Assembly: GCF_016859285.1 (NCBI RefSeq)
Contig: NC_053401.1
Coordinates: 10,829,661-10,893,660 of the forward strand
Origin: Xiphias gladius
Lineage: Eukaryota > Chordata > Actinopteri > Istiophoriformes > Xiphiidae
Direction: 5' to 3'
Length of the DNA stretch: 64,000 nt
Each line of letters begins with the position of its first letter. The first letter of the stretch is position 1. The notes under the pieces are model-generated. The model did no database searches and had not been told where the DNA came from. It saw only the letters and a program-made list of their open reading frames with translations. Position numbers and translations under genes: made by a program. Of this stretch, positions 22,025-61,524 are shown piece after piece.

Positions 22025-25000
22025 ATGAAGATGTTCTCAGTGTCCCATAAGACGGTATTCGTGGTAGACCACTGTCCCTATATGGCTGAGTCGAGTCGTC
22101 AGCAGGTGGAGTGTGATGTGCTGACAAAGAGTCGAGCTCAAGGGGTTATTCCTTTGGCCCCTGTGTCCAAGTCCCTGTGGACCTGTGCTGTGGAGTGCTC
22201 CATGGAGTACTGCCGGATTCTCTATGACATTTATCCACAGGACAAACTGGTTAGATTCTTTTTTTGATTTATTTTTTGTTCTTAAACTGGGTTTAAATGA
22301 AAAAAAATCAAATCATCAAAATCAATGCCAATAAATCTCTCTGCCACTTTTTTATTTAACAGGTTAATTACATTGTGAGTGATTCAGAGTTTCACATATT
22401 GAATAGCTGGAGGCAGGAAGATCAGAGCACTCATGAGGTAATCCCCTGCATTTTAAAACTCATTAAGCCAGCGTACGATAAATGTATTCACAAACTTCAG
22501 CAGCTCCAGGTTGTCACAAGGGCAAACAAACATCAGTGACCAAATTTTTGCACAAGTCCCCTTCAGAATTTGACTTGCAATATGATTATGTGGTTTCTCT
22601 CCCTGTTTGCTGGCAGCTCATGTCAGCTCTGGCTGCTGTTGGTCCACCTAACCCACGCGAGGACCCAGAGTGTTGCAGCATCCTGCATGGGCTGGTGGCT
22701 GCAGTGGAGTCATTATGCAAGATCACAGAGTTGCAGCACGAGAGGCGTACCGCGCTGATGGACACAGCTGAGAGAGTGGCCAACAGGGGTCGTATTATCT
22801 GCCTGACCAATGCTAAAAGGTAACCACTGTCATTAACGTGCCAGAAAATCAACAGCAGTCATTGGCCAGATGTTGATGATTCTGCTAAAATCAGTATGTC
22901 TAATGCTTCTAACATTTTGTTCAGCGCATTTATTTATATAACGGATCGAACCCTTTACAATATGATGCAGTCCAATACAAAACCAGCCTTAAAAATGACC
23001 GTGGAGTTGAATCAGCACCTCTCTAACAGAGTAAACCACAACTAAAATGTTCACAAACATAGTTTCATTCTAAGGACTGTTGTATTGTCACTGTTTTATA
23101 CTTGTGTACATATATGGGCTTATCTAAAGGACATTATTTATCCCATTACTTGATATTTATGAAAGAAGCCCTTATAATGCATTATATCCTTGAAGACTGT
23201 TGCCACTACAGTGCTGTTTTTTGCCTTTTATCATACAGCGATACTCACGTGCGCATGTTGGAAGACTGCATCCAGGAGACCATTTTAGAACAAAACAAGC
23301 TGGCAGCAGGCTCAGACAGGTCAGTGTCAGATAACGTGCAAAGAAACGTCTCACTGACTTCTTTCAATGATTTTTCTTTGATAGTAGTTGGAACAGGGAG
23401 TAATGGGCTGAAATATAGTGGTAATAATGCCGTCCTACTAAAATCAGATACATATGTGATGTGATAAATGACTCATAGATTTGTTTTCCTTTGTCTAACT
23501 CATTGTTGTGTCTTTCAGGCTGATGGCCATTCAGCAGTGTGAGCTGGTTTTAGTTCACATTTACCCACAGGGTGAAGACACGCTGGTGTCTGACCGACCT
23601 AAGAAAGAGGTGGGTGCCAACGAGAGGCTCGGGGCTCAGTTTTCTAAGATTCACCGTCAGAGTGGAAATCGCACAGAAAATAGCATTGTGAAAACAAGAC
23701 GCTTAGTGTTGGTTTCTAGACACCAAACCACGTCTAGTAGCACCATGTCACAGGTGTTATTTCTCACTGTATCCCTCTCTTGCGGTCTCAGATCTCTCCC
23801 CTGCTCACCAGTGAGGTTCACAGTGTTCGTGCTGGGAGACACCTCGCCACCAAACTGAACATTCTGGTCCAGCAGCACTTTGACTTGGCCTCCACCACCA
23901 TAACAAACATCCCCATGAAGGTAAGGGGCTTCCTGTGCTTTAGTCTGGCCTTGCACATGCCTCGTCAAAATTAAAACTCACATAAACCTTTAAAATATTT
24001 TTTTTTCTTGTGCTAGTATAAAAATGTTGTCATGACCAGAATGCAGTGCACCACTTCCACTTTTTACTTAAAGATTGCTTTGTTTTGGTTATTTTCACTT
24101 TTCTCTCACAGCCTTCACATTTTTCTTTGTGCTTGCTTAATCTTTATGTGTAAGCCATTCCTCACCACCTCTAATGCCTCATGAAACTTTACAGTCTTAT
24201 CTTTTTGTTTTCTCTCATCTGCATGTTGATATGACTGTGAACCTGCTGCTGGTTTCATGCTGTATTTTCTGTTTTGCTAGCCCACATTAAATGTTTGCGA
24301 ACAGGTTAGTACTCTTATCACACACACATGCAAGTGAGGAAGGGGCAGAGTTTACACCATGTAGTGTGCAGTATATATTTTCAGCTCTATTGTTGCAAAC
24401 AGGCTCACAGTGTCATTAGTTTATTTTGATGTGACAGTTGGTCTACAGATTTGCTGGCGAGGCTCCAGTGAAGGACGGGCAACTCTGGTCTCATGTGGAC
24501 AATTGGGGAATGCAGAGTTTGGGGTTTGATGGAAAAAGCGTAAAGCCTGCACACCTGAAATCAACTTTTTCTTTAATTAACTGATGTAATAACTTACGAT
24601 GACTCACTATTTGTTTTTAAGGAATTCAAATTGTTCTGGGAAAATCAAGCTTTTTTGGCTGTTTCGAGATAGTGTTTCTGCCAAATAATGATTAAAAAGC
24701 GCAGAGTATGAATATCGCATTCAACTGCCTTTAAGTCGGGACATCTGTGACCAGCGTTGCCTCTTCTGAGTCATTTAATACTGTAATTGTCTGTCAGGTG
24801 TTTTCACCTTAAAAGTTGTCCAAACTTTCCCCACGTCTTTGTTTCCCTCATCAGACCCCACCCACTCCCCCTTTAGTGTCTTTGTGTGGTCCATTGTGCT
24901 GTCTTGATAACTAGTTTTTTTTTAAACCTGACCATCCTCTAAATATTTAAACATGATTCCACCTTTAGCTGTCCTAAAACTGCAGTTTCTCCAAGTGTAA

Positions 25001-28000
25001 AATTCAAATTCAAATTCAAAACTTGTGATTAAAGTTTGTTTTTAGGTAAGTGGTTGCCAGGCCCCATTTTTAAGGCCATGGCCAAAATATATAAAACTGT
25101 TTTTTAAAATTGTCAAACAAGTATAGGCCCAATAGACTCTGTGTATTGTGTGAATGAAAGTACATTTACATTAAACACTAGTCAATGATGTAGAAAGAAG
25201 AAAACATACTTGGGTCATCCAGCAAGTGAACATTTTCCTTTTACTTTGTCCATTATCATTTACCCTCCGGAACATGAAATCAGCAGTGTTAATGAGCGTT
25301 TGTGTGTGTGCGCGCGTGCGTGTGTTTGTGTGTGAATGCATGTATGCGTGCGCATGCGTGTGTGTATGAGTTTTTGCGCATTCAAGCTGACGTGTATTTG
25401 TTATTGTCTCTGCGGATGGGCAGGAAGAGCAGCACGCAAACACATCAGCCAATTATGATGTCGAGCTCCTGCATCACAGAGACGCTCACCTGGAGTTCTT
25501 TAAAAGTGGTGGGTAAAAGTGAAGTAATAAACATTTGAGCAGGACAGTTTATTAACATTTTTTACTGAGATCCAGCGGCAAAGGCCCCAAATATAAGAGG
25601 TAGTGTTAAAGGCTCCAGGCACAAATGCAGAAAATAAAGTAATTCAGAAACATTTGAGGCAAAATCTTCAAACATTGCTCAATGAATAAAGTTTTGTTGT
25701 GCTATTGTAATTTCAGTGTTTACATTATTTAACAACCATGTTGGGAAACAAGTCTGCGGTTTCTTTATGACATCCTGGGTGATTTAATCTATGTCCAGTA
25801 TATTTTAAAGTCAATAATTCATCATCAGAATCTAACAATTCACATGTCGTCTTTCCATTGTGCAGGAGACTTGCATATGGCTGGCACCAGCACTCGAGAA
25901 AATGGACTCAAAGAGACGGTTACACTGAAATGGTGCACTCCACGGACCAACAGCATAGGTGGGCACAGTCAGCTGATGTTCTTATTTGTCAGTTATTATT
26001 TCGTTTTTTAAATGTTTAATATGTATAGTACTCTTGAAAGTTTTACTTAGCCTAATGCCAGGTTAGGTGACATATGCATGTATGCTTTAAATTATTGTGA
26101 AAAATACTAAGTTTTTATTTTGAAATCGGTTCAAATTTCTGCGAATATACTCCCACAATAGTCTTGTTAGATGTAGTTGTTGAAGTAGTTGTAATTTAAG
26201 TAGAGACATACAATATTCGTTATTTAAAAAAATAAAAAAATAAAAAATTCCCACGAAGCTATGAAGTAGACAAGAGAAATGTATTGTGCAGGAAAGGGAG
26301 TTATCGATTGCAGGATTGCAGCATCTGTGATGAAAAATGCCGGATTTAGTTGAATGTACTTGTTGCTTTTTTTCCCCCCTCAGAGCTGCATTACTGTACC
26401 GGAGCTTATCGCATCTCCCCCACAGATGTAAACAGTCGTCCGTCGTCATGCTTGACAAATTTTCTCCTGAACGGTAAACTGGATAAACTCATTAATCTGT
26501 ATTTGTTTATTCTAATTTATCTACACTATTCATTGGTTGTTTATTGGAGCAGTGTTTCTTGTAATGTGACTGAGATACTGGATGACTTTTCCAAAAGTCC
26601 CGTTCAAGTCAGTAAGTGAGATTTACCTGTGAAAACCACAGGTCGATCAGTGCTGCTGGAGCAGCCCAGGAAGTCAGGGTCAAAGGTCATCAGCCACATG
26701 CTCAGCAGCCATGGCGGCGAGATCTTCCTGCATGTGCTCAACAGCAACCGCTCCACCCTGGAGGACCCGCCCTCCATCAGCGAGGGCTGCGGAGGTCGAG
26801 TGACAGACTACCGAATCACGGTGAGTTCAGCTCACCGTAACTGTGCTGAAATATGCAACAAAATTTTTCTGATAGTAACGGATTTTATTTTGTGTGTGTG
26901 TTTTCCTCAGGACTTTGGTGAATTCATGCGGGAGAACCGGCTGACTCCGGTGTCAGAGTCTTCCCATGATCCCTCGGGCAAGCTGCCAGCTGAGAGGGCT
27001 AAGGCGCAGCTGGAGCGTCACACTCGATACTGGCCAATGATCATCTCCCAGACCACCATCTTTAACATGCAGGCAGTAAGCAGCATTCTGCATTTCAGTC
27101 TTACAAGAGCAGTTTCCACCACGCTCTAAAATATTCGGCTTGTTGTTCCATGATGATATCATCTGAAAGTAAAAGATAATCTGCCTGCTGGTTTTTGGTT
27201 TGTTTTGGGTTTTTTTTGTTGAGAATTTGCTGCTTTCCATGTTTGTCCATGTCATTGTCCTTGTGTCTTGCTTTTTTCCTCCACTAGGTGGTTCCTCTAG
27301 CTAACCTGATAGTGAAGGAGACTCTGACTGAAGAGGACGTTCTGACCTGTCAGAAGACTGTTTACAACCTGGTAGACATGGAGAGGAAGAATGACCCACT
27401 TCCTATCTCTACCGTCGGATCCAGAGGCAAAGGCCCCAAGAGGTATTTATTTAAAAAAAAATGAAAAAAGAAAGGAAAACTTGACCTCCTCCATCCTTTG
27501 GCTTCCAGTAATAGAGTATCACCATCACAGTTTATGAAAATAAACAGTCAGCAGGGTCACTGGTGCACTGTTGTTAATTCCAGAGATGAACAGTATCGTA
27601 TAATGTGGAACGAGCTGGAAACATTGGTGAAAACTCACGCCGGAGCCACCGACCGACACCAGCGGGTTCTGGACTGCATCATCGCCTGCCGCAGCAAACC
27701 TCCCGAGGAGGAGGACAGAAAGAAGAGAGGGAGGAAGAGGGAAGACAGGGAGGACAGGGCAGAGAAAAACTGCAGCAAGGAAACGGACGACAAAAGCTGG
27801 CAGGACTCAGAGAGGTAAGTAGGGCTCGGACGTCTATAGTGTACTCATACCGGAAAATAATAATCACAGTTGAAGGAAAAAGAACAGTTGCTGAAATTTA
27901 GTGGCAAAAAACAGTCTTTTCTGTGGCTTTTGGATGGGATGGTTCACTCAGCTTTCTATTCTTCTACGTTACACCGTCTTGTTGTTTTTTTAACCTAAAA

Positions 28001-42220: not shown

Positions 42221-44400
42221 ACGTTGAAGATGGCAGTAAACTGGCTAGGGCTGCCGTCCATAGGAGTGTTTTACATGATTGTACTGGGCACGGGCGTCTG
42301 GGCATCCAGGAAGTCCACACATGAGGAGAGGAAATGCACTGGGACCCGCGGTGAAGTTGCAATGGTTGGAGGACGGAACCTAAACACCTCAGTCGGCATC
42401 TTTACTATAACAGGTAAAATAATAATAATGATGATAATAACATCATAGCTGAATTCCCATTCAGCTATGATGTTATGTTTAATGGTATAATGGTGTTGTA
42501 ATAGCAGTTCACTCAGGAGATAAATGTTTTCAAAATTTCAGTTCGATGCATTTTGATGCACTAGTTTTTATCCATCATACTACGCAGGACTAATATACTC
42601 TATTTGTAACCCTGTATCCTGTTTTCCTCCTAATTTCAGTGGCTCTGTGCGCCTTTTATCCTGACAAGACCCTCTTCTGCTAACTTCACTGTTGCCGCAG
42701 TAACCAAGCTGCACCAGGAGCCATGGATCGGCAAGCTGGAGCTGGAAGATACAGGTCGCTGCTAATGGTAAAGGACACCAAATACCATCATTACTATCAT
42801 TGGGTTCTACTTCGTTTCACCAACTCTGTTGCAGTCTCCTAAGTAATCGTGTCTTTATTCTTCACCAAAGCCATTGGAGGGATCCGCTACCAGGCTTTCT
42901 ACCAGAGAGTCCTGTCCACAGCCACCGATGCTGAAGCTAAGATCACCTTTGCTGCTTTGTTGGAACAGTACTAAGCCCAATTCTTGGCATCCCATCACTC
43001 ATCATCGGAGCAGTGGCCGCATCTACCAGTACCTAACTATCTTCTCATTGCCTTTGTTATCTCTATCAATGTTGGAATAAGTATTGCTTTAGTAAAAGTA
43101 GATGTCAGAATGTAATTATATGAAAATAACGCACCCTCCCGCCGAACAGAACCGAGTTTTCTCTGTGGCCATGGTATTGTATCATTGGTTGTAATTCTAC
43201 TCTACACAAATCAAACATCTCTGACAAAATCCCACACATACGTTATCCTGTGACTCAGGTTTTAATTTCATGTGCTTAATGTCTGTCAGATTGGAACCAG
43301 AACACCTACAGTTCGTCCAGCCCGTATGAAGAGGGCAAAGCTGGTAGGATCTTGCCAATTGCCCTTCAGCATCTGTACCCTTTCTACATCTCACTGGTTG
43401 GTATGGGAGCCCTCGCTGCATCTGTGATGTCGTCAGTCGACTCTGCACTTCTGTCTGCTGCCTCCCAACTAGGCCGAAATATCTTCAAGAACATCATCTA
43501 CAAATGGGTGAGTAACACTTTCCTGTAATCCATTCATCGTTTAAGTCATTTATTAAGCAATAAGACTCAGAGTCTACAGCCATTGCTGGCAGGTCTATGA
43601 AGGTGTAATTTGCACAGCAGTGCTTTCACCTAATTGCTGTTAGCATGTGGCTAACATGGCTAAATGGCTAAAAATGCATGTTATTAGTAAAAATGCCAGA
43701 CATTTGCTAATTCTTGTTTCTTCAATGTCAGGATTTTCTGATTTTCTGTTTCATATTATTGTAAACTGAAGATACTTGGATTCTGCAGTGCAGGTCACAT
43801 TTTTATTTTAGAGCCTCAAAAATGAACACTGTGATCCACATGGTTTATTAAAAATAACTTGATGGCTTATGAAATTATTTTGTATTTCAGGCTTCAGAAA
43901 AAAATATTCTTGTGGTGGTTGAGGTGTAAGTCCTCCTGTGCGGAATGATGGGAGCAGGCCTTGCCTTGACATCAAGGTCCATTCACCTGTTCTGGATCGT
44001 CAGTGCAGATGTCGTGTATTCAATGATGACTCCCCAGGTGATTTGCACCTTATTCTTATCCCACTGGGTGAATGAGGACGGGGCCTGTTCTGGCTTTGTG
44101 TTAGCAATAGTACTGAGAGCTCTGGTTGGGGAACCCCTGGTGGGCCTTCCTGACATGCTGCCCCTGCCATGGGACAAGATCCAGGAGGACGGTCATCGAT
44201 ACCGCTTGTTCCCTTTACGCACTGCCAAAATGCTCATCAATACGGGGACTGTTTTACTGGTATCACACCTGGCTGTCTGGCTGTCTGAGAAGAGGCTGCT
44301 GAAAAGAATGACTGATGCTGAAATGGACACAAACATACATTACATGGCACGGTCATTGGACGCTTACAATAATTTCATAGGGATTCATTGCTCTGTCTGA
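42221..44400 (+). pseudogene. SLC5A7-like (high-affinity choline transporter family) pseudogene
   Basis: Pieces in SLC5A7 order, each with recognisable splice sites. Bases 42221-42413: start and first membrane segment, with VFYMIVLGTGVWA and VGGRNLNTSVGIFT. Bases 42701-42767: EPWIGKLELEDTGR, followed by an in-frame TAA. Bases 42871-43080: GGIRYQAFYQRVLS, a stop, then a frameshift to ILGIPSLIIGAVAAST. Bases 43290-43507: intact DWNQNTYS...ASVMSSVDSALLSAASQ. Bases about 43891-44400: a TAA near the start, then the distal membrane segments and C terminus. The exons for membrane segments 2 to about 7, including the family's ATWVGGGYINGTAE region, are absent; only about 290 bp separates the first two pieces. 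An AATAAA remains at 44461-44466. Family members couple Na+ to choline uptake; this copy cannot. Confidence 0.82.
42437..42476. repeat. Perfect 17-bp inverted repeat (hairpin) in a pseudogene intron
   Basis: The left arm at 42437-42453 (ATAACATCATAGCTGAA) is the exact reverse complement of the right arm at 42460-42476, with a 6-nt loop TTCCCA. It lies 24 bp downstream of the donor of the first SLC5A7-like exon. Confidence 0.9.
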
Positions 44401-44948: not shown

Positions 44949-47900
44949 CTACTGCTGTAAATTGTGTGTTTGAACATGTATTTTAAAAGTGTCTTCTTGC
45001 CTGAATATTTTACCGCACATCAAACATTGGAAAGACTTTTTGTTTGAGTGGATCGCCATGTGCCTTTTCTGCGCTCTCAAAGTGTTAAAGGATTTCGGAC
45101 ACATTGAACACCTGTAAGGACTCTCTCCTGTATGTTGTCGCATATGAACTGTCAATAGGCACTTTGCAATGAAACCTCTCCCACAGTGTTTGCAGGTGTA
45201 AGGCCGCTCGCCCGTGTGAAACCTCATGTGTAGCCTTAACTCCCCGGAGGAGAGAAAAGCCTTCCCACACTCTGTGCACAGGTAGTTCTTTTCACCTCTG
45301 TGCATCCGCATGTGTCTCGCCAGATGTTGGATTGAAGTCTTTCCGCAAACTTTACATTTATAACGGCGGTCTCCTGTGTGTATACGGACGTGCAACCCGA
45401 GGTTATACGAGGACCTGAAGCCTCGGCCACAGTGTGGACACAAATACGGCGTTTCGCCCGTGTGAATCCGACGGTGCACCTTCAGGGACGCCCTGGATGA
45501 GTACTTCTTCTCACACTTGTCGCAGTGGAACGGCAGAGTGTGTGTTTTTATGTCGCTGTTCCGTGTTGACACATCCCGGAAGACCTTCCCGCAGTACTCA
45601 AAAGCATTAGTTGTGCCCCTCATCTGAAGAGTCGATGTTTCAGTGTTGACTTGCGGAAGAACGCTGCCTTTCCCAGGTTCTTTGGAAGGAAGAGGACTGG
45701 GTTCCTGGATCAAATGCTCCTTTCTGATGTGCTGCACAAGGCCTGACACCTGGCTGTCCGAGTAGGGACGCAGAGAGCAGGTCTGCATTCTTAAAGGTAT
45801 ATTATTGTTTAAATCTGAAAGAGATTAGATGATGAGATTCAGTTTACGTAAATCCTGTCAAAATTATAGATTTTTTCCAAGTACTAATCCCCTCAATTCC
45901 TTTCAATCCTTGTAATATTATAAAAGACATCCAAACAAATTGAGAAATTCATATAAACATGGAAATTCCGTGGGGAAGCAATTCTTTTCAATGGTGCCTA
46001 AAACTGGATGCTGCCATACTTGAGCCATTTTCAGTTGGCAGGTCATTGGTTTGTTCATTTCCTCTGGTACAGTCCTCCAGAGTTGCTTTATTATCAGTTG
46101 GGTTTTCCTCAACTGGCTCTTCATCCTCACTATAATCAAACTGTCCTTCATCTTCATTGCCTGTGGACATTTCCTGTTGCCCTTGAGTGAGTTGCTTTGA
46201 GTTTGCTTTGGGAGGAAGAAATAGTCTTGGCAAAAACATATTCTGAGTTTGAGAGTAGCCTGTTAATTAAAAAAAAAAAAAAATTAAATCAGAGTTACTT
46301 GCAAACACGAAAAATTTTGATATTTTTTACACGTAATGCTAAGACTAAAATTTGGGTCTTTCCATTTTGTAAGGTATCTGCATACATGAGAATAAATGTA
46401 CTGACACATTTGTTAATTTAAAAAAACCCATATTCCGAAAAATTCTCTGCATATTAGCTAGCGTAACTATAGCGGACTATAGAGGACTCAATGGGCTTAT
46501 CTCTGTTTTGGGTACAGGTATTGCACCTGTGTTGTTCAAATTTCATCATAGAATCCGGTGCTTTTCAGCACATTCTCAGCCCATTTCTTAATATTTTTTA
46601 ACACTCGGTGCCTTAAAATTTGGCCACGTTTACTGAGATCACATCAGGTTTTTATGTCAAAATCCCATCACTGTGCTATCACAAACCAGTAGGTGGATGT
46701 GTGAGGTTAGATTTGTCACAAATACTGTTTTTTTGAAATAGAAAAAAGCCCATTGACGATAGCCATCTTTCTTCTTCACTTTTTTTTTGTTTTTTTTTGT
46801 TCAGCATATCATTAAAATGCACAAAAAACAAACAAAAAAAAATTCCCAATTTTGTTAACAAAGAAAATATCTTACACTGCTATCTTACACAGTTTTGTTG
46901 TATTCCCGTAGGTTTAACCACATAAACACCAGGTATGTCTTGCACTCAAATTTCCATTAAAAAAAACAAAAAGAGAAAAGTCCCTTTTGAAGTCAGTAAA
47001 TGTTCAAAGAAATAGTCATCTTGTTTGTCTTAAGTATTACTGGATGGTTTTATGCAGCCTAGGGCAGATGGATTTATTATATTGTTCTTAAATACTGCAG
47101 AGCATGACTTACACGTCTTTGTGTTTCCTGACTGTTGCTCATGGAAGTGCATTAGTGCCTTCAGCTGATCTCGTTCCAAAACCAGGTGTTCACATTGTTC
47201 CATGACAGAGGGGGTGGTGCTGAGCCACTCTGCAGTCTGAAAAGCAAATGCAAAACACAGAATGAACATGTACAGTACAGCAAAGGCAACAAAAGACCAT
47301 ATTTTTACAACATGATTGATCTTTTTCTTATTCAGAATCTTGCATAGTATCAGTTACTTTGACCAGAGCCCACTTAAATTTATTTATCTTATATTTATAT
47401 GAAACCTAGATCTAAACCAAGGTGCTCTGTTTAATATTTAATAACATACCTTACCTGTTTAATATCAGGGATGGGCAAAAGACTATCCAGTCTGGTGATG
47501 AATTTCCAAACTAATGCCTGCAATGTGGCTTCATACTGTTTGCCATAGTGGGTAGCAAAGATATCCTGAGGAAAATAGGATGGTGAAACATCAGACATGC
47601 GTGCACACAGCTGGTTTCAGTCTCCTTGCAAATTATGTAAGAAATATCCACTCTGTCTTCTCTCACAAAAGGTGGCATTTCTGCCACTTGAGTTAGTATC
47701 TACATCTTACAATTAACTTACAAAAGTTTTAACACACTGATAAATTACTAACAATAAAACAGTCCATTATCAGATACGAAGTTTAATTACGGTACTTTTG
47801 TTAAGAATATCTGACCTTGAAAAACATTGTCCTCTCCTCTGGGTCCTCGAGCAAAGTTTGAACAACCTCCACAAAGTTTGACTTTGAATTTTCCAACTCC

Positions 47901-50900
47901 TCCAATTCCTAAAAATTGGTGTCAGAAACAAAACAGATAAGCAATAAACATGTTGGTTGCCAAAGAATGATTAAGGGACCCTTCTAACCAATCAACAAAA
48001 ATGCATCACTAATTCTAAGTTTCATTAAAATCAACAAATTGCTTCACCGTAAAGTACAGAGATGTCATTATAATTAGTCTGATGTTTTTTTTAATATATG
48101 TTTTCATTTAATAGTTGACAACAGAGGCAGTTATAACTATAAAGGCATGAAGCAGTTGTGGAGCATGTAAACTAAGCTAATAAACAAGAGTCATGAATTT
48201 GAACATTCAATAACAGTTAATGATATTAAGATCTGCAAAAATGGTGCAACTCCCTGAAATGGCTTGACAATATTGTCTCTTCCTGCGTTTTCACTAAGGA
48301 GCAGATGCAAGGAAACATCAAATAAACATCAAGAGGAAATCTGCCTGGACTTGAATCCTCAGGGAATAAAGGAGGGAGGAAAAAAAAAAAAAATCAAAGA
48401 ACTACTGTTAAGTGCAGTAATAAAGACTAAACAACATGGGGCCCACCCTGAGTGTTAGAGGGGAGATGATCACTGCCTCGGGCAAAGTGAGGTGGAGATC
48501 CATGGAGGCTGTCCTCATTGATCTCTAAAGGTCTAACAGGGTTAAAAGAGGAATGCTGCTTAATTTGGACTTTGAAGAGTCTGCCTTTGACCTCAGTCCG
48601 TCTGCCTCTACGAAGAACAACAGAGGAGCTTGTCCTACCGTGTGACAACGACAGAGCACCAGTTCATTGTCTGCCCCACGCAGCTAAGGCCTTGCTAAGG
48701 TGCCGAGGATAACAATTAGGTAAACAAGGAAATACAAAGGTGCAGGATCCATTCAAATTCCAGCTTTGCTTGCAGACAGGCGTCAGAAAAAAGGTCTAAG
48801 CAGTGATCAGTGTGTGGAACCATGCTGATTTTGTTATTTGTTTCCTTTTGAAGCTCAATAAAATCAGTGACCTTTGGGCAACACCAGTGATGATTTTTTT
48901 TTTTTTTTTTAAATTCTGCATTCCTCTTTGTAAAATATGTTTGTTAAAATTATTCAAGAGTTGGGTTTTTCAGGGGAAAACAGCAGGGCCACCTAATTTA
49001 ATTTATGTTCTTTTTAAAGGCCCATTTAGAAATATTTACAATGAATCAAATGTCATAATCTGTAAAGGATTTTATGAGCGTGGACCAGTCTGATACTGAT
49101 CACGCCAATCAGCAGCTCAATGCAGCTTTGAGTTGCTTTCAGCTCAGTATTCGACCACACCGGCAGACTCACCTCCTGATCACAGGTGGAGCCTATTAAG
49201 AGGTCTTGTATAATCTTCAGGTGAGGCTGGATATCCTGCAAGGTGGCTGTGCTCCCATTTCGACACAACTCCAACACAAGCTGAAACAGACGGCGTAGCA
49301 GACGGTTACGAGCGCTTAATAACAATATGATATCTTTTGCTTGCATTCATTTGACTATGTTCTGGTCTAAATAATAAGACATGACTGTATAAAAGGATTA
49401 CTTGTCTTCTTATTTTGTTGTTGGACATGAATAAAATGCACTCTAAATATGGCTTAGTTATAATTTGGAACCCACTCCAACGATACTTAAAAACAATTTT
49501 AATTTCATAAAAATAAATCAAAGAAAAAATATTTTAAAAAAAAATAAAAATAAAATACAATTAATAATTTAAGAAACTGAAAAAACTATGCCTCTTACAC
49601 TTGCCCTTAGTCTGAGCGGGAGCTGTACTTTCTCCCTGGCTGTCAGCAGCTCTGGAGCCAGTTCTGTCACCAACCTCACCAGCTCCTCCACCTTTTCATA
49701 ATGTGCCACATTACGAGACTGGACCACCTGCCAGGCAAAGGCACACATCAGACGCAGGGTTGGAACCAGGAAACACAATGACGAGAGGGACAAGTGGCAA
49801 CCTGAAATTTGAGATAAGGAAGTGTGAAATAACAGCATTTAAAAAGCAAAGCAAACTTAACTTGCATGTAAATGTATTTTGGCAAATTTGACATTTCAAT
49901 GTTGTCTAATTCCAAAAATATTTATGCAAAAAAGAAGAATAATTGCTAGTTATCCCTTTTTCTGCATTTAATAACCCTAATTCAGAGCAATAAACCATTT
50001 CTAACCTTATAACTTAACTTTACCACGAATGACATATCCTACATGAATCTAACCATTTTATTAATGGAGCATGTTGGAAGCTGTTCTCCGGCTAGGAGGA
50101 ACACCCTACCTGACAGGCCGAATTTAGGGAAAAAAAGTCCCTAAAGTACCCTTAAGTACTTCAACCTCCAGGCTGGTTGTCTGCACAGACTATCATCTAC
50201 TGACTGTTATATGTGTGCTCATATCAGTTGGCAAAGTGCAAATGGGTGTTCTTCCATGAGCATGTTAGAAGCTTTAATTTAAATAATTAAAATCAGTATT
50301 TTTTATAATTGTTTTCATCCATTTTCCCCCATATAAATATAGTTACCTAAAGAACACCAGCTGCACTGAAACATTTGAAGATCACTGTTACCTATATGGG
50401 TACATATTTTTTCCTTGCAACATTTAGATTTGTAAACACTTTATTGCAAATTAAAACCAAGAAGATCACATACTGCACCACAATTTCACAGAAAAGCTGT
50501 TGCAAATTTAGCAATCTTGGCTGCAAACATGGCAAAAAAAGATTGTGAAATCCTGTTGGGCTTGTCTGGAATAAAATGTGTTGTTTACTACTGCAGGATA
50601 ATTCAGTTAGTTCGAGATTCAGTAGGTTGCAAGCCACAGTGCAAAAACAAATTCTTATTTTACCCAAGTCTTCAACTGTTTCAGAGAGCTCATGCTGTGA
50701 TTTTTGAAGTGATGCAGGGGCTGAATCCATGGCTTTTGCTGCTTGTTTAGTCTCAGCTTCTGGCTTGTGAACACCAAGGACTTTATCCATAATGGCAAAC
50801 CATCTGCTCTTTTGCTTTTTAGAGACCTTCTGTCCCTTAATCCTTTTGTACTTTTGTTTCAGCAGTCTTATCTTCGACCTGCATTGGCTGGTGGTCTTAT

Positions 50901-53900
50901 CGAAACCCTGAGTTGCAAGCTCCGAGCTTAGCTGAGCAAAAACTCTCTCATTCCTCTGAGTTGATCTAAGCTGCTCCTGGACGCTCTCCTCTGCCCATCG
51001 GGTGAGCAACACTTTAACTTCATCAGATGTCCAAACAGCCCGCAACATGTCTGTTGAAAGCAACATAACCAAATTAATACAGTAACAGCTTTTAAAGTTG
51101 CCGATAGACCTTTTGTCACGCAGTTTTAAACAACATACCATTCACATGCTCATCTTCTGGTGATTTGGGTTGTGAGAGCACTGCAGATGAATCCACCACT
51201 GTAGAAGCCTCTCCATCAAGGCCAAGGACCCGATCTAAAATAGCAAACCAGCCACTTTTAACGTCCCTGTGTGGTTCCAATTCCTTGAGTTTTCTGTATT
51301 CATCTTTAAGGTTATTCACTTTAAGATTGCACTGCTGCGGCTTCTTTTTAAACCCAACCAAGGCGAGCTCATTGCTGAGGTACGTGAAGACTTGATTGTT
51401 TGCTGCTGTGGTGAGAAGCAGTTTCTGAATGTTTGGTTGTGCCCAGAGGGTCATCAGCACTTGGACTTCATCAGGCAACCACTGGCTTTCACCTGTGAAA
51501 GTACATATAAAATAAATCACACTGAATTTTAAAATATAGTGTCCAAATATTGATATTTAATGCAGACTATGACTCATTACAGGGCTCTTCATTCATCAAA
51601 CATGACTGAACCTTTGTTTTACCAGGTCAATTCTCCTCTCTTCACCGCCATTCAAAACGATTTTGCAAAAGTGACCTGGCCCTTCAACACTCACATTCAC
51701 CAGAGGAGCTGCATTCTAGCTCATTGTAATCAATGTGAATTTACCATACGAGGTTAACTCAGTCTGTAATGACTTCCAGGTTCAAACACAGGAATTATCA
51801 GTGAGATAACTCACAGGTTAAAATCACCAATACCGTGGCCTGTAAGGCTTCTCTGGTCTAGCAGAAGTATATAAAACAATCAATATACAACAATCTATCT
51901 CGTATTTTATCTCAATCAGATATTGTCATTCACGCTGATGTTTTTCTCTACTGTATATTATGGCCCAATAAATAACATGAGCTTGGGGATGAGGTTGGTT
52001 TCCCCCTCTTGTACATGGAAAGAAGCTGTTCCTGCACTGCACTGCTTATCCAAGGAAACACCAAGTCTTTAACTTCCTCGAGATTGCAGCTGACATATCC
52101 TCTAGCAGCACCTGCTGTAGAATTTTTGAAATTGCATAAATGAAAAAATGTATACAATAGAAACAATCAGACAGTAACAGATGCTAAACCTACATAGTTG
52201 GTTTGGTTGGTTAGTTGGTTTCTAGTTTTAATTTCCACTTACCATCGGTGTCCACATCTAGGACAGACTGTGACTGAGTGGGCAGGGAGGACCCTGTGGA
52301 GGACGGCTCTGTTGTTCTCGAACGTTTTGCTGCTGCAGCCTGGGAATTGAGGACGTCATCCATAATGGTAAACCATAAACTTGTACGGGTGATGTTGCTT
52401 CCACCCCTGTGTTGAGCATTTTTGATTCTCTTGTACTCCTGCTTCAGTTTTTTTATTTTCTCCCTGCACTTCTTTGGGGCTTTGTTGAATCCAAGTGATG
52501 CCAGTTTGGCGCTGAGGCGAGCGTAAACTTTATTATTCCTTACGTTGAGGAGAAGCTCTTCTTGAACAGCTGGATTTGCCCAAAGTGTCAACAATGCTTG
52601 GACCTCTTTAGTTGACCAACAGCACAAGGGAGTATCTGTGAAAGCAAAAGATCGTAATTTATCAAGTCATGAAAGTGGATAAACTATGTACATTTGAAGA
52701 ACGGAATGCATTTAACCTTTAATGCAGCAAATTCACAATTAAATATTGTGTTGTACTACCAGTTTAGTACACTTATTCTGCATAGCATTTAGTGTCTGGC
52801 CAATTAATCTAATTTGACTCATACTATATTTATTTAAAGACTTTATTAAGGTCCTTTTGAGAGAACTATAACATTCAAGTCATTGTCGAGTAACATGCTT
52901 CTGACTCTTCTTGTTTAGTCCTAATTATTACTTCAAAACAAACCAGCACTCAACATGAAAGGCCAGTGTTTTAGAATGAGGTACTACCAATTAATAAAAC
53001 TATTTTTTCTGTCACATAGGAATTATTAAAGAACTAGTGGTATAAAATTTGTTGTATAATAAGGCAACTTATAAAAGACAGTATGAGCTAAATATATTTA
53101 TTTCTTATCCTAAAATTAAATTCCGTAAGCTTGTCGACTACTTGCCTTTGACTGGCGCTTGCATTGCGGTGGAGGTCACTGTGGTGCTTGTGGAGGGACC
53201 GTCAACATCTGCCGGCGGAATGGAGCAGGCCCCTGGGCCTTGTGGGTTTTCTGCGGGTGCTGGAGCTCGTGTAGGGCAGGGTAAGTTAGTGTTGCTGAAG
53301 CCTCCAGGAATGTCCATCGTAGTGGGTAACGTTCCATATGCACTGATTTTCCTTACTAACACTAATATACCAGGCTGTGTGCCTCAACACATGCAATAAC
53401 ATTATCTATAATATTATTGCATACATACTTTTTAAGAAGCCAGTCCTATCAGCATTATTTTGAATTCAATTATCTTGTGTTTTTATAAGTTAACACATCA
53501 ACATTAGACACCCTGATGAGTGGGAATGGTGTTTTTACTGGGTATGTGATTAAAACATGACGAGACTCATTGTACAGTTTTTAAACCTACTGTTTGTGTT
53601 TACATGCCAGTAAACTGCAGGTAAATGCAAACAACTGCAACTGGTTGACAGTAATGTTTGTACGTGGCTCCTGACATACTTGCAAAAAACCCTGTTGAAA
53701 CATTAAACTAAGATGACCTTATTCTTACTGGAAAACCATGAAAATAAACTAAATATGATTTTTTTCCTATCAGAACAACAAAGACCACTTACCTGTTTCC
53801 GCATCTGAAATCATGACTTCAAGTATCACGGCGGGTGACTGTTCTGTGTCATTTGTCGCAGCTGGCCTTTCACTCATGATAGTGTTCATAGCCTCATACC

Positions 53901-54159
53901 ACCTGAAAGTCTTTCCAAAGGCCCCACTTCTCTCACTGTGTGTTTTAATTTTCCTGTATTCTTGTTTAAGCTTCTTTATCTTCTCTCTGCACTGCTTCGC
54001 CGAGCGACCCATTCCCATGGCGGCCAGTCTACGTGACACTTCCCGGTATACTTTCTCATTTCTAAATGATTCCTCCAGCTCACGCTGAATTTTCTCCTCT
54101 GACCACACGGCGATAAGCGCCTGAGTTTCTTCGTGAGACCAGTTCACCAGTGGCTCCAT
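44949..54159 (-). CDS. Gene A: predicted 4x Myb/SANT-like + TIN2-like N-terminal domain + C2H2 zinc-finger protein
   Basis: Exons, 5' to 3': 54159-53793, about 53259-53146, 52635-52243, 51492-51139, 51050-50664, 49801-49599, 49280-49173, 47908-47816, 47565-47455, 47236-47113, 46259-46020, 45814-44949. All junctions keep frame: 3,360 nt, 1,119 aa. Myb/SANT-like (trihelix) domains are at about 7-95, 168-255, 296-380 and 412-500, each with a W..EE/DEV..L...W start, N..V/YA.LS and a QC..KI..LK.EY core. Residues about 539-751 resemble the TIN2 N-terminal domain (AFAWQVVQSRNVAHYEKVEE; YGKQYEATLQALVWKF; LDSLLPIP). Then come an acidic linker (about 752-831) and one degenerate plus seven C2H2 fingers (about 880-1115), one shortened by two residues. 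Likely a nuclear DNA-binding protein. The second exon ends in a GC donor and its acceptor is the least certain boundary. An alternative view is two adjacent genes, but no poly(A) site or new start was evident between exons at 50664 and 49801. Confidence 0.82.
50664..54159 (-). other. Myb/SANT-like exon array of gene A
   Basis: Four intact exons (54159-53793, 52635-52243, 51492-51139, 51050-50664) each encode one trihelix-type DNA-binding domain. The three internal ones are phase 1 at both ends and multiples of 3 (393, 354 and 387 nt), so each can be skipped or duplicated without breaking the frame. A proline/serine-rich exon (about 53259-53146) and a truncated fifth copy (about 52111-51948) lie among them. 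This looks like serial exon duplication. The domains are of the MADF/Myb_DNA-bind_4 style and lack the telobox signature of TRF1/TRF2. Confidence 0.85.
51948..52111 (-). pseudogene. Truncated fifth Myb/SANT-like exon
   Basis: After an acceptor (CTACAGCAG| at 52112) in the same phase 1 as the other Myb exons, the frame reads EEVKDLVFPWISSAVQEQLL, clearly related to EVQALLTLWANPAVQEELLL of the exon upstream. It then diverges and stops at 51948 without the QC..KI..LK core and without a usable donor. If spliced in, it would truncate the protein. Confidence 0.65.
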
Positions 54160-54199
54160 TGTCTTTTCTGTCCTACTTGTTCTTCAAATGAGAGCAACT

Positions 54200-54300
54200 T
54201 TCAAGACATGGAGGATGTGGAATGTTTTGACATTTTTTCAAAATGGCGCCTCTTCCGCATCTCGCTTTCATGACGTCACGCCATCTGAGCCAATCAGATG
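54200..54300 (-). promoter_or_regulatory. Putative gene A promoter with CRE, CCAAT and YY1-like sites
   Basis: Within 140 bp upstream of the gene A ATG (54159) lie a perfect palindromic CRE TGACGTCA (54271-54278), CCAAT (54290-54294, plus orientation) and AAAATGGCGCC (54240-54250), which resembles a YY1 element. Local GC content is raised and no TATA box is seen. These sites suggest a TATA-less housekeeping promoter. Binding is inferred from motifs only. Confidence 0.5.
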
Positions 54301-54309
54301 GCCGTTGCT

Positions 54310-56224
54310 TAGATAAGGCTCGGATGAGGGCGGAGACGGCTGGTTCCTACCCGGAACCGTGAGGACGAGCCAGAATGATGATAGAAACAGTTTGGTTCGC
54401 GTAGTGGGGCCAAAGCGTACTATATCTGGCCTGTGGAAATGTGCCATTATACGCCGAACTGGTCCTGCATGTCCCCTACTAATGGACGAAAGCTATCGGC
54501 ACGACATTTGTCAACACTTCGTTACTGTTAAGTCACAAACAAGGAAAAGGTCGAGCCCACGTTCACGCTTTATATTTTCGCGGTTTCTTAGCGTGTGGCA
54601 CCTTTGACCACATCTGTTATCTTGACTGGCTACCGGTGACGCTGTGTAATCTAATGCGTAACATTAAGTACAATTATTCAAGTACTGTACTTAAGCACAA
54701 ATTTTAGCTTCTTGAGTATTTCCATTTCATGCTGCTTACTTGTAGTTCTCTAAAATTCAGGAGGAACTAGCGTTGTGCTCTTTTCTCCACTACATTTGAC
54801 AGCTGTACTTGAAAATTTAAGATTTATACAAACATAAGTTGAGCTTATAAAGTACGATAAATTATAATAAATTTAACTACCCAATAGTATAAAATAGTTA
54901 CATAAAAATGAGCTCCAGCTCGTCCAACTACAAGATGCTGCTTACATATTAATGACACCAATAATCCACTTTCCTCATTACAAGCACTTTTACGTGATTT
55001 CTAATATTACTTACAAACTTCAATATAGGACTTGGCAGTACTGCTATCTCCACTTGAGTTAAAGGGTCAGAATGTTTTCTACACCACTGTTGACTAAAAA
55101 TAAACCCATTTTTAAGTCCCATAAAAAACAAACCGTTAGAAAACATTTCTTTGCTTAGAGTATTTATTTTTTCTGTAGAACATCAAAAACAAAAAATACT
55201 GAGAACAGGTACATTACTTTGTAGTTTATATACAAGGCTGCTTACAATAGGATAAGTAAAGGAAAGATAAGATTCACAGCACAATCTCATCACACAATTG
55301 CATATGGTTAAATGATTCTTTTGCTCAACCTAAATTGAAATTCTCAATGTTTTCTTGTGTTAATTCAACACAGATAGAGCAATAAAACTGCATCTACTGC
55401 TGGAAAAAAAGTGAAATCCTAACAAACATAAACCAGCCTATTTTCAATCTAAAACAAAAGCAGAGTTGTAATGTGTACACTTCAGGGTTACATATAAAAG
55501 CGTGTGGTGAAAGTAGTTTTGAATCACTACAATATCCACAAGGATACCGTAACAAAGTTAAATGTTTCCTAGTGACAATACAACATTTTATTACACAGCA
55601 GACAAATCATCTACAGTCACATGCATTGAAATACTTTTGTTTACATGATGTCAATGTCTTAAATGTTTGCTATACTAAGGTAGCCTCTTTAAAAGCATGA
55701 CGTTTGGAAAATTTTTTTGCTTCAACTTTCAAAACCCATCACTCATTGTAAAGAAAATGATTATCAACAATTAACAACTCCACAATATACCAAAAAAATT
55801 ATCAAAATGCTCTGTTGCCTTCTTACTGTTCTCAAAATGTGATAGCTTAACACTACCTTAACTAATTTTGTCAGATCACCTAATTATATGACGAACAGCA
55901 TAGTAAAACGATGGACTTTATTAGTAGAGATGCTCCAGCTGGATGATTTGGAGCCGGCTAATACCCATTATAACTGGGATTGGTAGTCTTTAAATTCAAT
56001 GATCAGAAAAAAAATTATCATTACATCATTCAACATGTGTTTTCACTACCCAAACCATCATGTTGATGGTGATCACCACCACAAGGAAACAAGTCAAACT
56101 TTGAAAATTACATGGTTCAAGGGTTCACTTATGTGGTGGCCTTCTGGACAAGCCTATTTTCATTGCTTCAGTGATCAGCATCAGCCCTGATCAGAGCTAT
56201 TTAATACAAAATATGTTTCTTTGA
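54310..56224. other. Spacer between genes A and B, including the probable gene B 3' UTR
   Basis: The right part should contain the gene B 3' UTR. Minus-strand poly(A)-like hexamers occur near 56,200 (ATTAAA) and 55,917 (AATAAA), but none can be chosen with confidence. The plus-strand frame at 54359-54607, just beyond the gene A promoter, has no family resemblance. No other exon was seen. Confidence 0.4.
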
Positions 56225-59200
56225 TTAATAATCATCACTGCCCTCGTCTTCCTCATCATATTTCCTCTTGATGGAGTGCTTCTTATGCTTACCCCTGTGC
56301 CTCCGTTTACCTGAGAAGTCAGGATTAGCGTCCCTCGTATGTATCTGCTCGTGCTTCTTCAGAAGGCCGGGGACAGAGAATCCCTTCCCGCACGTGTCAC
56401 ACGTCCAGGGCTTCTTGCACGTATGAGTCCTTTTGTGGACGTTCAGATGGGATGCAAGCTTGTAGGTTTTCCCGCACACGTCGCAGCTGAAGGGTCGCTC
56501 GTTGGTGTGTAACCTGATGTGAACCTTCAGATTCCCGACCTGAGTGAAGCTCTTGTCACATATGGAGCATCGGTAGGGTCTCTCTCTGGTGTGGATCCTC
56601 AGGTGAACCCTCAGGCAGTACTTACTGGAGAACTTCTTTTGGCAGACCGGGCACGGGATCTTAGCTTTGGGCACGTGGTCTTGCTGGTGCCTCTTCAGGT
56701 CAGACAAATAGACGAAGGTCTTTCCGCACTGAGAGCAGAGATACTGGCGATCACCAATGTGGTAGCCCATGTGTCTCTTCAGCAAGCTGGGGACGAGGAA
56801 TCTCTTCCCACAACGCTCACACATGTGAGGACGATCTCTGGTGTGCCAGCGCTCGTGGTTTGACAGCTTGAAAGCCGTTGGGAAGCTTTTGTTGCAGTGC
56901 TTGCAGGGGAAAGTCATCTGGCTCGTGTGGCACTCCATGTGTCTTTTGAAGTAGGTGGACTGCGTGAAGCCCTTGTTGCAGATGTTGCAGTAGAAGGGCT
57001 TTTGGCCGCTGTGGGCGAGCATGTGTTTTGTCAAGCTCTGCAGTTTGGTGAAACACTTGCCGCATTGTCCACAGGCATAAGGACGCGTCGTGCTGTGGGT
57101 CTTCAGGTGGTTGTTGAGGAACGCCTGTGTTCGGAAACTTTTGTTGCATGCTGTGCACATGAAAGGCTTTTCTCCTGTATGAATGCGCTCATGGTCCATT
57201 AGCTTGGACTGATAAGGGAAGCTCTTATCGCACACACTGCAAGTAAATCTGTCGGCTGGAGGCCTAATTTGCTTTTTTCTTCTCATGCTTGGCTTCGTGT
57301 CGTCTCCTGCACTGAGACTGGCCGGAGGAAGAGGTGGCAAGGCTGGGAGTGAGAGCGAGTTAGTGGCAATCTGTGACACCCACTGATGCAATGTGACTCG
57401 TTGAGTGTGGGGCTTTTGGCCATCTTTAGTTGCTGCACTGCCTGCATTCGGTAAGGTGGAGGTAGGTTTGATCGGCACTTGAACTACCCTGAAAGGGATT
57501 GATTTCAAGGGCAGTTGCTGTGCTTCTGGTTTCTCAAGTATTTCTGGTGCTTCATCTTCTCCTCTGCTTTGTAGAGTCGTAGCAGACTGTTCCTGTGTGG
57601 AACTCTTCTCCTGCACCACATTTTCCCTCTGAGCTGTTGTTGTGACACTCGTTTCTTTTGCAGCACCGCCATCACCCATTTTATCACTGCATCGCCCTCT
57701 TCGCTGTTGTCTAGCAGCAGGGTTCGCTGGGCTGTCGGAGTCATCTGACATCACTCCTAAGTCTTCAGTGTCACTGAGGGAGGCTGGGCTTCTTTCGATG
57801 ACGGTGTCCTCTAATCGTTTTGGTGGTTCTGGTGGTGGTGGTGGTGGTGGTGGTGGTTCTACTAGTTTGGGCCGGAAGGCGAGTGAAGAGAGTACGCAGT
57901 CGCCCACTGATGACGAGATGGTAGCTGCACAAAAAGAAAGGGCTTTGTAAAATGTCTTCTTGACTGTATTTAATGATTTACAGTTTTCAACAAGTTTAAC
58001 CACCTGTGCATCTGTCTACTGTCTTGTCTACCTTGTTAGCACAAAAGACTTTTGGTATAGGCTGATATATATATATATAATTTTATTACTAGGGAAGCAT
58101 CTCTTTTTTTCTTTATTTCATCATATCTTTATACAAAACCACTTAAAATATACCTTTAACACCAAGCAGTCCTTTGGCCTGCTGGTGTAGGAGAAGCGTC
58201 TTCAGGTCCCCGGGGTCGGGGATAAAGCCTCCACACGCCTCCAGGACAGTGGGCTCGGTTGAGATCATGGCACCGAGCTGAAGTTGTGAGGCGAGAAATG
58301 GAAGTAAATTAATACATTTGCAGTGCAGTTTTGATTGTTTGTTGTATTGTATGTTTCTCTTTCCATCGTCCAACATCAAATATCTTTGTATAAAATGAAT
58401 GTACATGGTATCACTTCAGAAAGCTTTCACCTGCTGTTTTATAAGGCTTTGTGTAACAGCTAACCTATGTGTAATATATCCAAAATGAAATCCTGAATCC
58501 AGTTCCTGAAAGGTCTAAAAATAGCTTTAACTATAGTCTGTAAACTATATTAAATACAGTTTTCAAGGCCTTAAAATGTCTGGAAGAGGTCCAGTCTCAA
58601 AGAGACTTTACTTTGAATTCTTACTTTGGTTTAATTTATTTAGCATACTTAATCTATTTAGCCTACATATAAATTGTAGAAATTGGTTTGATGCTACATT
58701 CCAAAAAAGATCAGAAATGTCAAGAGAAGTCTGGAATTTAATGAGTCTTTGCAGACACTTTAAAAATGTGCCCAGATATTATAAAGTGTGTTAAATAATT
58801 ACAGTAATTATAGTAATATCCTGTTTTTGTTTTGGCATGTCAATTAAGATCAACTACAAAGCACCCGTGGGGCCTGGAGGAAAGATGCTGTAGTTCCTGT
58901 TTCCAGCCAGCAGTCCACCCTGATGTGACTGCCCCCAGAGTCAAACACCCAGTGACAGTACACGCGCATACCTGGGACAGATTGGGAACAGGAAGAAGCT
59001 GCTCAAGCTTGCACACCAGACCTGCAGTCAGAGCCTGCAGCGCTGTGTCAAACTTTGTACCGTACTGAACAGGGAACACCTCCTGCAGAGAGAGAAATGT
59101 GTAGGGGTTTAACAGCACTGTGACTTTAAAATTATGAGGGCCAAACACTTTACACAAAATGAGAGTAACATGAATTAAGGTGTCTTAGCGCCACATGCAC

Positions 59201-61524
59201 TGTGTTTTAATGCAGCTGAATTCTCTGTATAGTTCTCCTCATTTACATATTTTTCTATTTCTACTGGCAGACAGTGGAGCGATTGTGAAATCTGACCAGA
59301 TGTGTGTTGTGCTGTGAAATAGACTATGCTGACGACGTTAGAAGCAGCACAAGGTTGTCATATTCAAGTACAGCCACAAAGCATCTATTACCACATTTAA
59401 ATGAGCTGCAAGTGTGGAATGAATGGCTTTGTGTGATGAACACCCATGACCGTCTAATAACACATTAAGATGGATGGGGATACCTGGAAGAAGCGCTTCC
59501 TTTCAGTAGGGTTTTTAAGCAGATTCTGGACCAGCACCATGAAGTTTGTTTGAGATTTCTCCACTTCTGAGTCCTTCTGTAACACAGGAAATACTAAAAG
59601 TCAGATTTAATTCTAGATTTGAATCTGTCATAAACACTCAAAACTGGTACAACTGTTTTATGTTTCTCAGGAATAAAAAGTTTGAATTCTTACCCCTGAA
59701 GATGCAGAGACCTTCAACTTGTTTATGAGAGTCTGAATTGCTCGAGAATCTGGTGGCCCCTCCTTGTGAAGCAATTCCAAAATGATCTACAGTACAAGAC
59801 ACAGATTATCCTCATCAGAAATGTCAAAAACTAGCAAAAAAAGAGTGTAACTGCTGGGATATATAGTACAAGATCACACACTGCAATGTTTTTGTAAATA
59901 ATCTCTTTCTTTTTTTCTCAAACACAATATCAACTCATTCCGCAAAACAAATGAGGTCTTCAATTTCATTCTAGGAGAGAGGGAGTAAAGCCGTAAGGTC
60001 AAATGCTCTTTTTGTTCTTGATGTGTGTGATTTGTAATACGAAGCATATGGAGTTTCATCAGCATGGTGTGGTGTGAGCATCCACTTTGATGTTCAGTAA
60101 CCTTAAGAAAGAAATCTGGAGGAACGAATGCCAGTTTAGAAGCCTGGAGAGCACACAACCTCACCGGCTGAGAGTGACACCGAGCCTCGACATTTGCAAG
60201 TGTGGATCACTGATGGGTTTAATCTCCATCCAGTCGGATGCACTGTTTTGCTATCTGTTGCTTACATAAAGTACATTATATTATTGGCTGTGTGCACACG
60301 ACAGATGAAACTCACCCTTGCTCTCAACCCCAGGATGAGCTGGGCAGTCTGCTTGAAACTCATGAGCTCAGGAACCGTTTGCGTCACCATGGTCACAAAC
60401 TCCTCCACTTTCCCATACTGCTTCACGTTTCGCTGCCGTATGATTTGCCATATGTACGAATATGTCAGCTGCAGAGGGGAGGCCAGTAAGCGAAGGGAGG
60501 CAAGGGGAAGGGCGCCTCCAACACCTGTTAAGAACAAGAAGTCAAAGGGAGTTTGGAAACGGTTACATTTATAAGTTGGCACTAGTTAACACATTTTTAA
60601 ACCAAGTATGTGTGGTGATTTTAGGCATCAGAACACCACACTCGGCAACCCCGCCAATAATGTTAGAAATGGTTGAGTCTTTCAAGTACTTGAGCACTAT
60701 GACTTACAGTAAGTTAGCCTGTAACAGTAATACCAGCATGATCTGTATGAAAAACCCAGCAGGGTCTTTTTGTGTGGAGAAACTGGCCAACTCTTACATC
60801 AACAGATCTTTGATAGATTTATGGATCGGTTATTGAATCGGTACATTTGTTCAATAGTCTTTTATATATTTATACGATGTGTGCTTTGTGTTGTCTCCTG
60901 TGTTTGTGTTTCAGTACAAGCTTGTCCACACAATAAAAGGTAACCGGTACAATGTAAATCTTCCCCTCTTATCAGCGTTGTGATAATTGGTTTGTGTGTT
61001 TACGCCAACAGCAAAATCTGGTTTCAGGGGGTAGGGGGCGGTGCAGTGCTAAAGACACGGTTCGATCGCTGCCGAGGGTTTGAAAGCGTGTTGTGCACGT
61101 TTGCGTGTGCGTGTGCAGTCGTGAAGAGAATGAGCGCCAAAATGCAGCCGAGTTAAAGTCAAACTTTAAGCAGCTGGAGCAGGCAGTAGAGCTTTGCTTA
61201 GGGGAGTTATCACACTTAATATTACAAAATGCCACGGCCGATCAGTGCATCCGGAAGACGGATGATTTCATTCGAAATTAAACAGCCTTGGTCAGTCCTC
61301 GCTAAACCTAATTAGCTCACTAACTACCATATTTAGCCCCAAAATAGCCGAACAGACTTAGCTACATGCATGCCGACCAGCGATTAAAGAGCAAGCAGTC
61401 AGGTTACTGCCACAGATGGCACATGTTGCATCTTATTTTCTGACCAACGTTCTCGGCGGCAGCTGCTGTTAGCTTGCTAACGTTAGCTTAGCAACTTACC
61501 TGTAGTATCAGACCGTTTCCCCAT
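56225..61524 (-). CDS. Gene B: TIN2-like N-terminal domain + 11 C2H2 zinc fingers
   Basis: Exons, 5' to 3': 61524-61500 (ATG), 60524-60316, 59786-59694, 59576-59484, 59082-58972, 58277-58154, 57924-56225. They total 2,355 nt, 784 aa, all junctions in frame; an in-frame stop lies upstream of the ATG. Residues about 9-218 resemble the TIN2 N-terminal TRFH-like domain (YIWQIIRQRNVKQYGKVEEF; QYGTKFDTALQALTAGLVCK; LEQLLPVP). A poly-Pro run and an acidic, Ser-rich linker (about 220-440) follow. Eleven tandem C2H2 fingers span about 445-753, starting at FTCSVCDKSFPYQSKLMDH, with TGEKPF-type linkers partly replaced. A basic then acidic tail (RRHRGKHKKHSIKRKYDEED) closes the protein. Probable nuclear DNA-binding regulator, target unknown. 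Gene A has the matching exon series, so the two are tandem paralogues; gene B lacks the Myb exons. Confidence 0.92.
57822..57859. repeat. (GGT)n microsatellite encoding a proline run in gene B
   Basis: About nine to ten GGT units on the plus strand read as CCA/CCG-type proline codons on the coding strand, giving a run of about ten prolines in the linker of gene B, early in the last exon. Repeat length may vary between alleles without shifting the frame. Confidence 0.9.

Follow-up and report, generated by a model that had tools for sequence, protein, structure and literature searches.

A predicted Xiphias gladius protein with trihelix Myb domains, a TIN2-type domain and C2H2 fingers, and its place in a TINF2_N-C2H2 family

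We know of no TIN2 (TINF2) protein that carries Myb domains or zinc fingers, and the telobox Myb domains of TRF1 and TRF2 are typified by a helix 3 of the VDLKDKWR type. Proteins of the ZSCAN29/ZSCAN20 type combine SCAN, Myb/SANT-like and C2H2 domains, and fish proteins joining TINF2_N to C2H2 fingers are present in domain databases. Zinc-finger (ZNF) families with an N-terminal module include the KRAB-ZNFs, the FiNZ proteins of fish and the KRAB-like ZNFs, as set out in the available part of PMC11603059. A TINF2_N-zinc-finger family is described in no title or abstract among the literature matches listed, which are mostly open-access papers, and the available main text of two papers on ZNF families (PMC10547256 and PMC11603059) makes no mention of TINF2.

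The locus analyzed here lies in a window of 64,000 nucleotides (the whole stretch of DNA under study, C2:10829661-10893660) of the Xiphias gladius genome. At best reading, the sequence comparisons would place its product in a family of nuclear DNA-binding proteins that resembles the KRAB-ZNFs and carries a TIN2-type module; at two loci this module appears to be joined to a Myb array.

Gene model and domain content

An earlier reading of the window from its letters alone (the sequence-only reading) had proposed a gene of twelve exons, and rejoining these from the DNA of the minus strand, from 54159 to 44949, reproduced it exactly as a single frame of 1,119 codons and a stop over a span of ~9.2 kb. 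Ten of the 11 introns are GT-AG and one is GC-AG. The start codon and Myb/SANT domain 1 are encoded by exon 1 (53793-54159), which has a phase-1 donor in full agreement with the consensus (CAG/GTAAGT, 9/9), and domains 2, 3 and 4 by exons 3 (52243-52635), 4 (51139-51492) and 5 (50664-51050), each of phase 1-1 and delineated, like exon 1, from the exon Pfam scan and the frame. All four Myb exons have phase-1 3' ends. Exon 2 (53146-53259), placed by frame, is optional; it encodes a proline-rich linker of 38 codons and ends in the GC donor (AAG/GCAAGT), and the 11 exons that remain when it is left out form a frame of 1,081 codons that is also open. Since exons 2 to 5 are of phase 1-1, skipping any one of them leaves the frame intact, and alternative splicing of these exons could vary the number of Myb domains in the product.

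The TIN2-like exons account for residues 539-752 of the 1,119-codon product. TINF2_N exons A (exon 6, 49599-49801, phase 1-0) and D (exon 9, 47455-47565, phase 0-0) were located by the exon Pfam scan, with the frame and an alignment as the respective second lines of evidence, and exons B (exon 7, 49173-49280) and C (exon 8, 47816-47908), both of phase 0-0, as parts of the full-length TINF2_N match. Exon 10 (47113-47236, phase 0-1) lies past the end of the profile; it was placed by frame and has a counterpart in the second locus discussed below. The frame then continues through exon 11 (46020-46259), a linker with an acidic tail, into exon 12 (44949-45814), assigned by frame and Pfam, which encodes six canonical C2H2 fingers, two further fingers that appear degenerate by eye, and the stop codon.

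Profile searches bore out the domain assignments of the sequence-only reading. In the joined protein TINF2_N (PF14973) was matched with high significance over 149/149 profile positions (E 7.4e-47, 159.9 bits against a cut-off of 29.4), Myb_DNA-bind_4 (PF13837) in four stretches (E 3.3e-67, 223.4 bits) and zf-C2H2 in six stretches, and all domain types clear the Pfam cut-offs by a wide margin. When exons were scanned singly, with TINF2_N exons A, B and D taken in and exon C left out, the four Mybs gave e-values of 1.6e-21 to 9.3e-14 and exons A and D values of 1.4e-12 and 5.4e-12, while exon B, at 0.024, fell below the cut-off. Against the PDB, the TIN2-like part recovered human TIN2 (5xyf) with an e-value of 2.6e-14 over 165 residues, the next match being at 0.15, and the best match of Myb domain 1 was plant GT-1 (2ebi; E 2e-4). 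When viral contigs were scanned with Myb exon 1 or the TIN2-like part, no relative was confirmed. By eye, the helix region of the Mybs reads KQCREKIKKLK and variants thereof, and the VDLKDKWR-type helix 3 of the telobox is absent. By sequence, the Mybs are thus of the trihelix (GT-1) type and not of the telobox kind, which agrees with what had been proposed for them.

Between Mybs 2 and 3 (51950-52130, minus strand) we noted a stretch resembling a decayed fifth Myb exon, whose translation, aligned with the other Mybs by MAFFT and judged without a profile score, comprises helix 1 and part of helix 2, with no good donor seen by eye. Together with the two degenerate fingers and the dependence of one exon on a GC donor, this remnant might be taken to mark a decaying gene from which the full protein is no longer made. 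Such a state is highly improbable for a gene that retains 12 exons with 1,119 codons free of stops, and 19 columns that are invariant across the alignment of its four Mybs.

Elsewhere in the window, Mat89Bb (PF10221) was matched in three reading frames (23499-27815, plus strand) and the anoctamin dimerisation domain in two (11837-14784, minus strand). A 156-aa open reading frame (43930-44397, plus strand) has no Pfam match at an e-value of 0.01, and we take it to resemble the end of a choline transporter.

The TINF2_N family and the limits of the window gene

Profile searches over the 690.8-Mb assembly recovered at least 33 TINF2_N exon matches, of which at least 17 start with profile position 1 and are termed exon-A loci here, both counts being lower bounds. 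The combination of domains in the window gene, for which the sequence-only reading had named no described precedent, is not a one-off: it is a variant within a TINF2_N-C2H2 family, and the second locus described below also joins TINF2_N to Mybs. A C2H2 cluster, defined as two or more fingers detected by a regular expression, lies downstream in 12 of the 14 loci for which downstream DNA was read, the link at the C13 locus being positional only (three fingers ~8 kb downstream, where the fetched stretch ends). The other two are a locus on C12, with no cluster in the fetched stretch, and the one at C2:10.64, where Myb exons are found instead. A neighboring TINF2_N gene within the window (56228-60516, minus strand) has a 596-aa C2H2 reading frame with 11 fingers by regular expression and 10 stretches by Pfam. 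Myb_DNA-bind_4 matches number 38 genome-wide, comprising 4 in the window gene, 7 at C2:10.626-10.634 and 27 elsewhere; they occur close to two of the 17 exon-A matches and near none of the remaining 15.

The members of this family share further features around exon A. Its acceptor is of phase 1 in 12 of the 13 starts that were read by eye, the window gene among them, and the exception is a fragment at C2:10.654 that falls outside the 17 exon-A matches. We scanned 10 other loci for first exons, taking as a candidate (rather than a proven exon) an ATG followed by a phase-1 donor of 7/9 or better; the best candidates are short and lie in CpG-rich sequence (o/e > 0.75) in 6 of the 10, and the C13 locus has none. 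Furthermore, a CpG island is found 0-3,038 bp upstream of exon A in 11 of 12 other loci compared, namely 11 of the 16 other exon-A matches and the C2:10.654 fragment. The window gene has the family layout of TINF2_N exons beginning with a phase-1 exon A, followed by a linker and a C2H2 exon. A linker motif like CILSSLSLPP recurs in the family, and exon 11 of the window gene carries what looks by eye to be a diverged form of it, FLPRLFLPP (within FLPRLFLPPK).

The Myb exons, the TIN2-like exons and the C2H2 exon probably constitute one gene with a single transcript. In favor of joining them the sequence-only reading had cited the phase 1 shared by the Myb4 donor at 50664 and the exon A acceptor at 49801; the agreement is genuine but of low weight and does not decide the matter, since phase 1 is found at the end of every Myb exon and at the start of exon A throughout the family. 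The case for one gene comes from the family layout, in which exon A takes a phase-1 upstream exon. The window gene lacks the combination of a short first-exon candidate and a close CpG island at exon A; its nearest CpG island (53851-54800 in the CpG-island scan, a CpG-rich, promoter-like region) is 4,050 bp upstream of exon A and lies over the start of Myb exon 1, which is also the best-scoring first-exon candidate in the gene and would take the place of the short first exon. The proposal that Myb domains, a TIN2-type domain and fingers are united in one polypeptide thus agrees with how promoters and first exons are arranged in its own family. This promoter argument is not absolute, as no CpG island occurs over 12.3 kb at the C2:22.477 locus.

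It is rather unlikely that two genes lie side by side here, one for the Myb array that ends past 50664 and one of the TINF2_N-C2H2 kind that has a first exon to itself. The uninformative phase match is no obstacle to such an arrangement. The Myb4 donor (TGG/GTAAAA, 5/9) is the weakest of the eleven, and the frame of exon 5 runs open for ~90 codons beyond it, to a stop at 50392 that is followed by ATTAAA at 50278 and AATAAA at 50062. Open runs of this length begin at 1.8% of 5,094 intronic positions, some of them reaching into exons, and the run makes exon 5 a possible terminal exon. The 862-nt intron between 50664 and 49801 also holds one alternative first-exon candidate (ATG at 50374), whose donor, at 7/9, equals those of most family candidates; this candidate agrees with the Kozak consensus at 0 of 2 positions and lies outside CpG-rich sequence, and the stretch from the Myb exons to exon A is free of CpG islands, whereas 11 of 12 other loci have one no more than 3.1 kb upstream. 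The single-gene reading is further supported by the second locus, which likewise unites TINF2_N with Myb domains, six in number, in an open frame.

A second TIN2-Myb locus

The second locus lies ~234 kb from the window gene (C2:10625903-10640913, minus strand; L010-L012), a short last exon lying beyond these coordinates. Its TINF2_N exons come first, followed by a linker with CILSSLSLPP and then by the Myb exons, which is the reverse of the order in the window gene. The model for this locus was fitted: it starts at exon A without a first exon, its phase being set by one base placed ahead of it; a seventh Myb exon (T3), which breaks the frame, was excluded, the acceptor of T4a and the donor of T5b were re-chosen, and the last exon was added. 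As fitted, it has 1,160 open codons from exon A and matches TINF2_N at 2.7e-57 and Myb_DNA-bind_4, in six domains, at 5.3e-114 in Pfam. A regular-expression search of the downstream DNA found no C2H2 cluster. At both loci a single open frame runs through TINF2_N and an array of Myb_DNA-bind_4 domains; the loci differ in that the Mybs of the second locus follow TINF2_N and take up two exons each, whereas those of the window gene precede it with one exon per Myb.

To compare the arrays we used a tree of 17 of 24 gathered Myb domains, the 24 being part of the 38 genome matches; Wdecayed, T3, L033, L034, L035, L036 and L038 were dropped beforehand as short or divergent. In this tree, in which 0 of 14 inner branches are starred as strongly supported, the two arrays stand apart and that of the second locus adjoins a lone Myb on C16. 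A single clade of both arrays was rejected (p-AU 0.03, in a test picked after the first FastTree result), and the four Mybs of the window gene as a clade of their own were neither recovered in the tree nor rejected (p-AU 0.196). These comparisons lean towards two separate captures as the way in which Myb arrays came to be joined to TINF2_N. A TINF2_N tree of 11 fish loci and the human protein, with several rows lacking exon B, has 0 of 9 inner branches starred, and this lack of resolution means that the tree does not decide whether the two TIN2-Myb genes are sisters.

Possible function and comparison with known systems

One could envisage a shelterin-type protein, whose TIN2-like domain would bind TPP1/TRF2 and thereby put the Mybs and fingers at chromosome ends. 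The homology to the TRFH domain of human TIN2 is clear and the TINF2_N profile is spanned in full, and both would fit such a role. In human TIN2 the substitutions A15R, F152A and E153A abolish binding of TPP1 and TRF2, according to the available part of PMC8262337; in the window protein A15, F152 and E153 align with Met, Trp and Lys (the Trp-Lys pair in exon 9), residues that differ from the substitutions assayed there. Position 153 is acidic in 9 of the 11 fish genes compared, the exceptions being the window gene (Lys) and its neighbor at 56228-60516 (Gly), and none of 13 fish loci compared has Ala at the A15 position. The consensus of the TRFH-binding motif is F-x-L-x-P, as given in the available part of PMC12635197, and no match to it occurs in the 1,119 residues of the window protein. 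The Mybs score as Myb_DNA-bind_4, and zebrafish is reported, in the available part of PMC5425123, to have TIN2 inside a six-subunit shelterin. Given the different interface residues, the missing TRFH-binding motif and the zebrafish TIN2 in shelterin, a shelterin role is very unlikely. A telomere role, marked as speculation when it was raised, is likewise disfavored by the interface residues and the missing motif, and partners other than shelterin are possible.

The C12 locus (C12:12962236-12965115, minus strand; L024) is a TINF2_N gene with no fingers in the fetched stretch and an acidic open reading frame downstream. A search of its strand for F-x-L-x-P-x-[KR] gave no match. It may be the true tinf2 or a separate branch.

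The domain content suggests that the product of the window gene acts as a nuclear regulator which binds DNA and recruits a partner. Its four tandem trihelix Mybs would precede a TRFH-like domain of the TIN2 type, an acidic linker and the C2H2 fingers. The protein would contact DNA separately through the Myb array and through the fingers, and its TIN2-type domain would recruit a partner or dimerise, as KRAB, SCAN and BTB do in other ZNF families. Seen in this way, it would be a TINF2_N-C2H2 family member whose promoter-side end is taken up by a Myb exon array in place of the candidate tiny first exons of other members. A fold known from a telomere protein seems to be a shared module of a fish DNA-binding family, and at two loci a Myb array accompanies it, placed before it in one case and after it in the other. 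More tentatively, and at somewhat under an even chance, we propose that in this fish lineage a large family of transcription factors took over the TIN2 TRFH domain as its general recruiting module, as happened with KRAB in tetrapods, and that the DNA-binding part is interchangeable: C2H2 fingers in most members and Myb/SANT domains captured twice, in one case ahead of the TIN2-type domain and in the other behind it. Should its members all recruit the same partner, the family would add one more fish ZNF system to FiNZ and the KRAB-like ZNFs.

Human TIN2 shares with the window protein a homologous TRFH domain that corresponds to the full Pfam TINF2_N; the window protein differs in lacking the TRFH-binding motif and at all three binding residues compared, one of them charge-reversed. 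The TINF2_N-C2H2 family of the same genome, exemplified by the neighbor at 56228-60516, has the same TINF2_N exons, phase-1 exon A, linker motif and C2H2 exon, and the four Mybs set the window gene apart from the 15 exon-A loci that have none nearby. KRAB-ZNFs, FiNZ and KRAB-like ZNFs resemble it in having an N-terminal module, but the module is a different one, and recruitment is ascribed to the TIN2-type domain by analogy. The ZSCAN29/ZSCAN20 type likewise unites Myb/SANT-like domains, C2H2 fingers and a protein-interaction domain, which is SCAN in those proteins and of the TIN2 type here.
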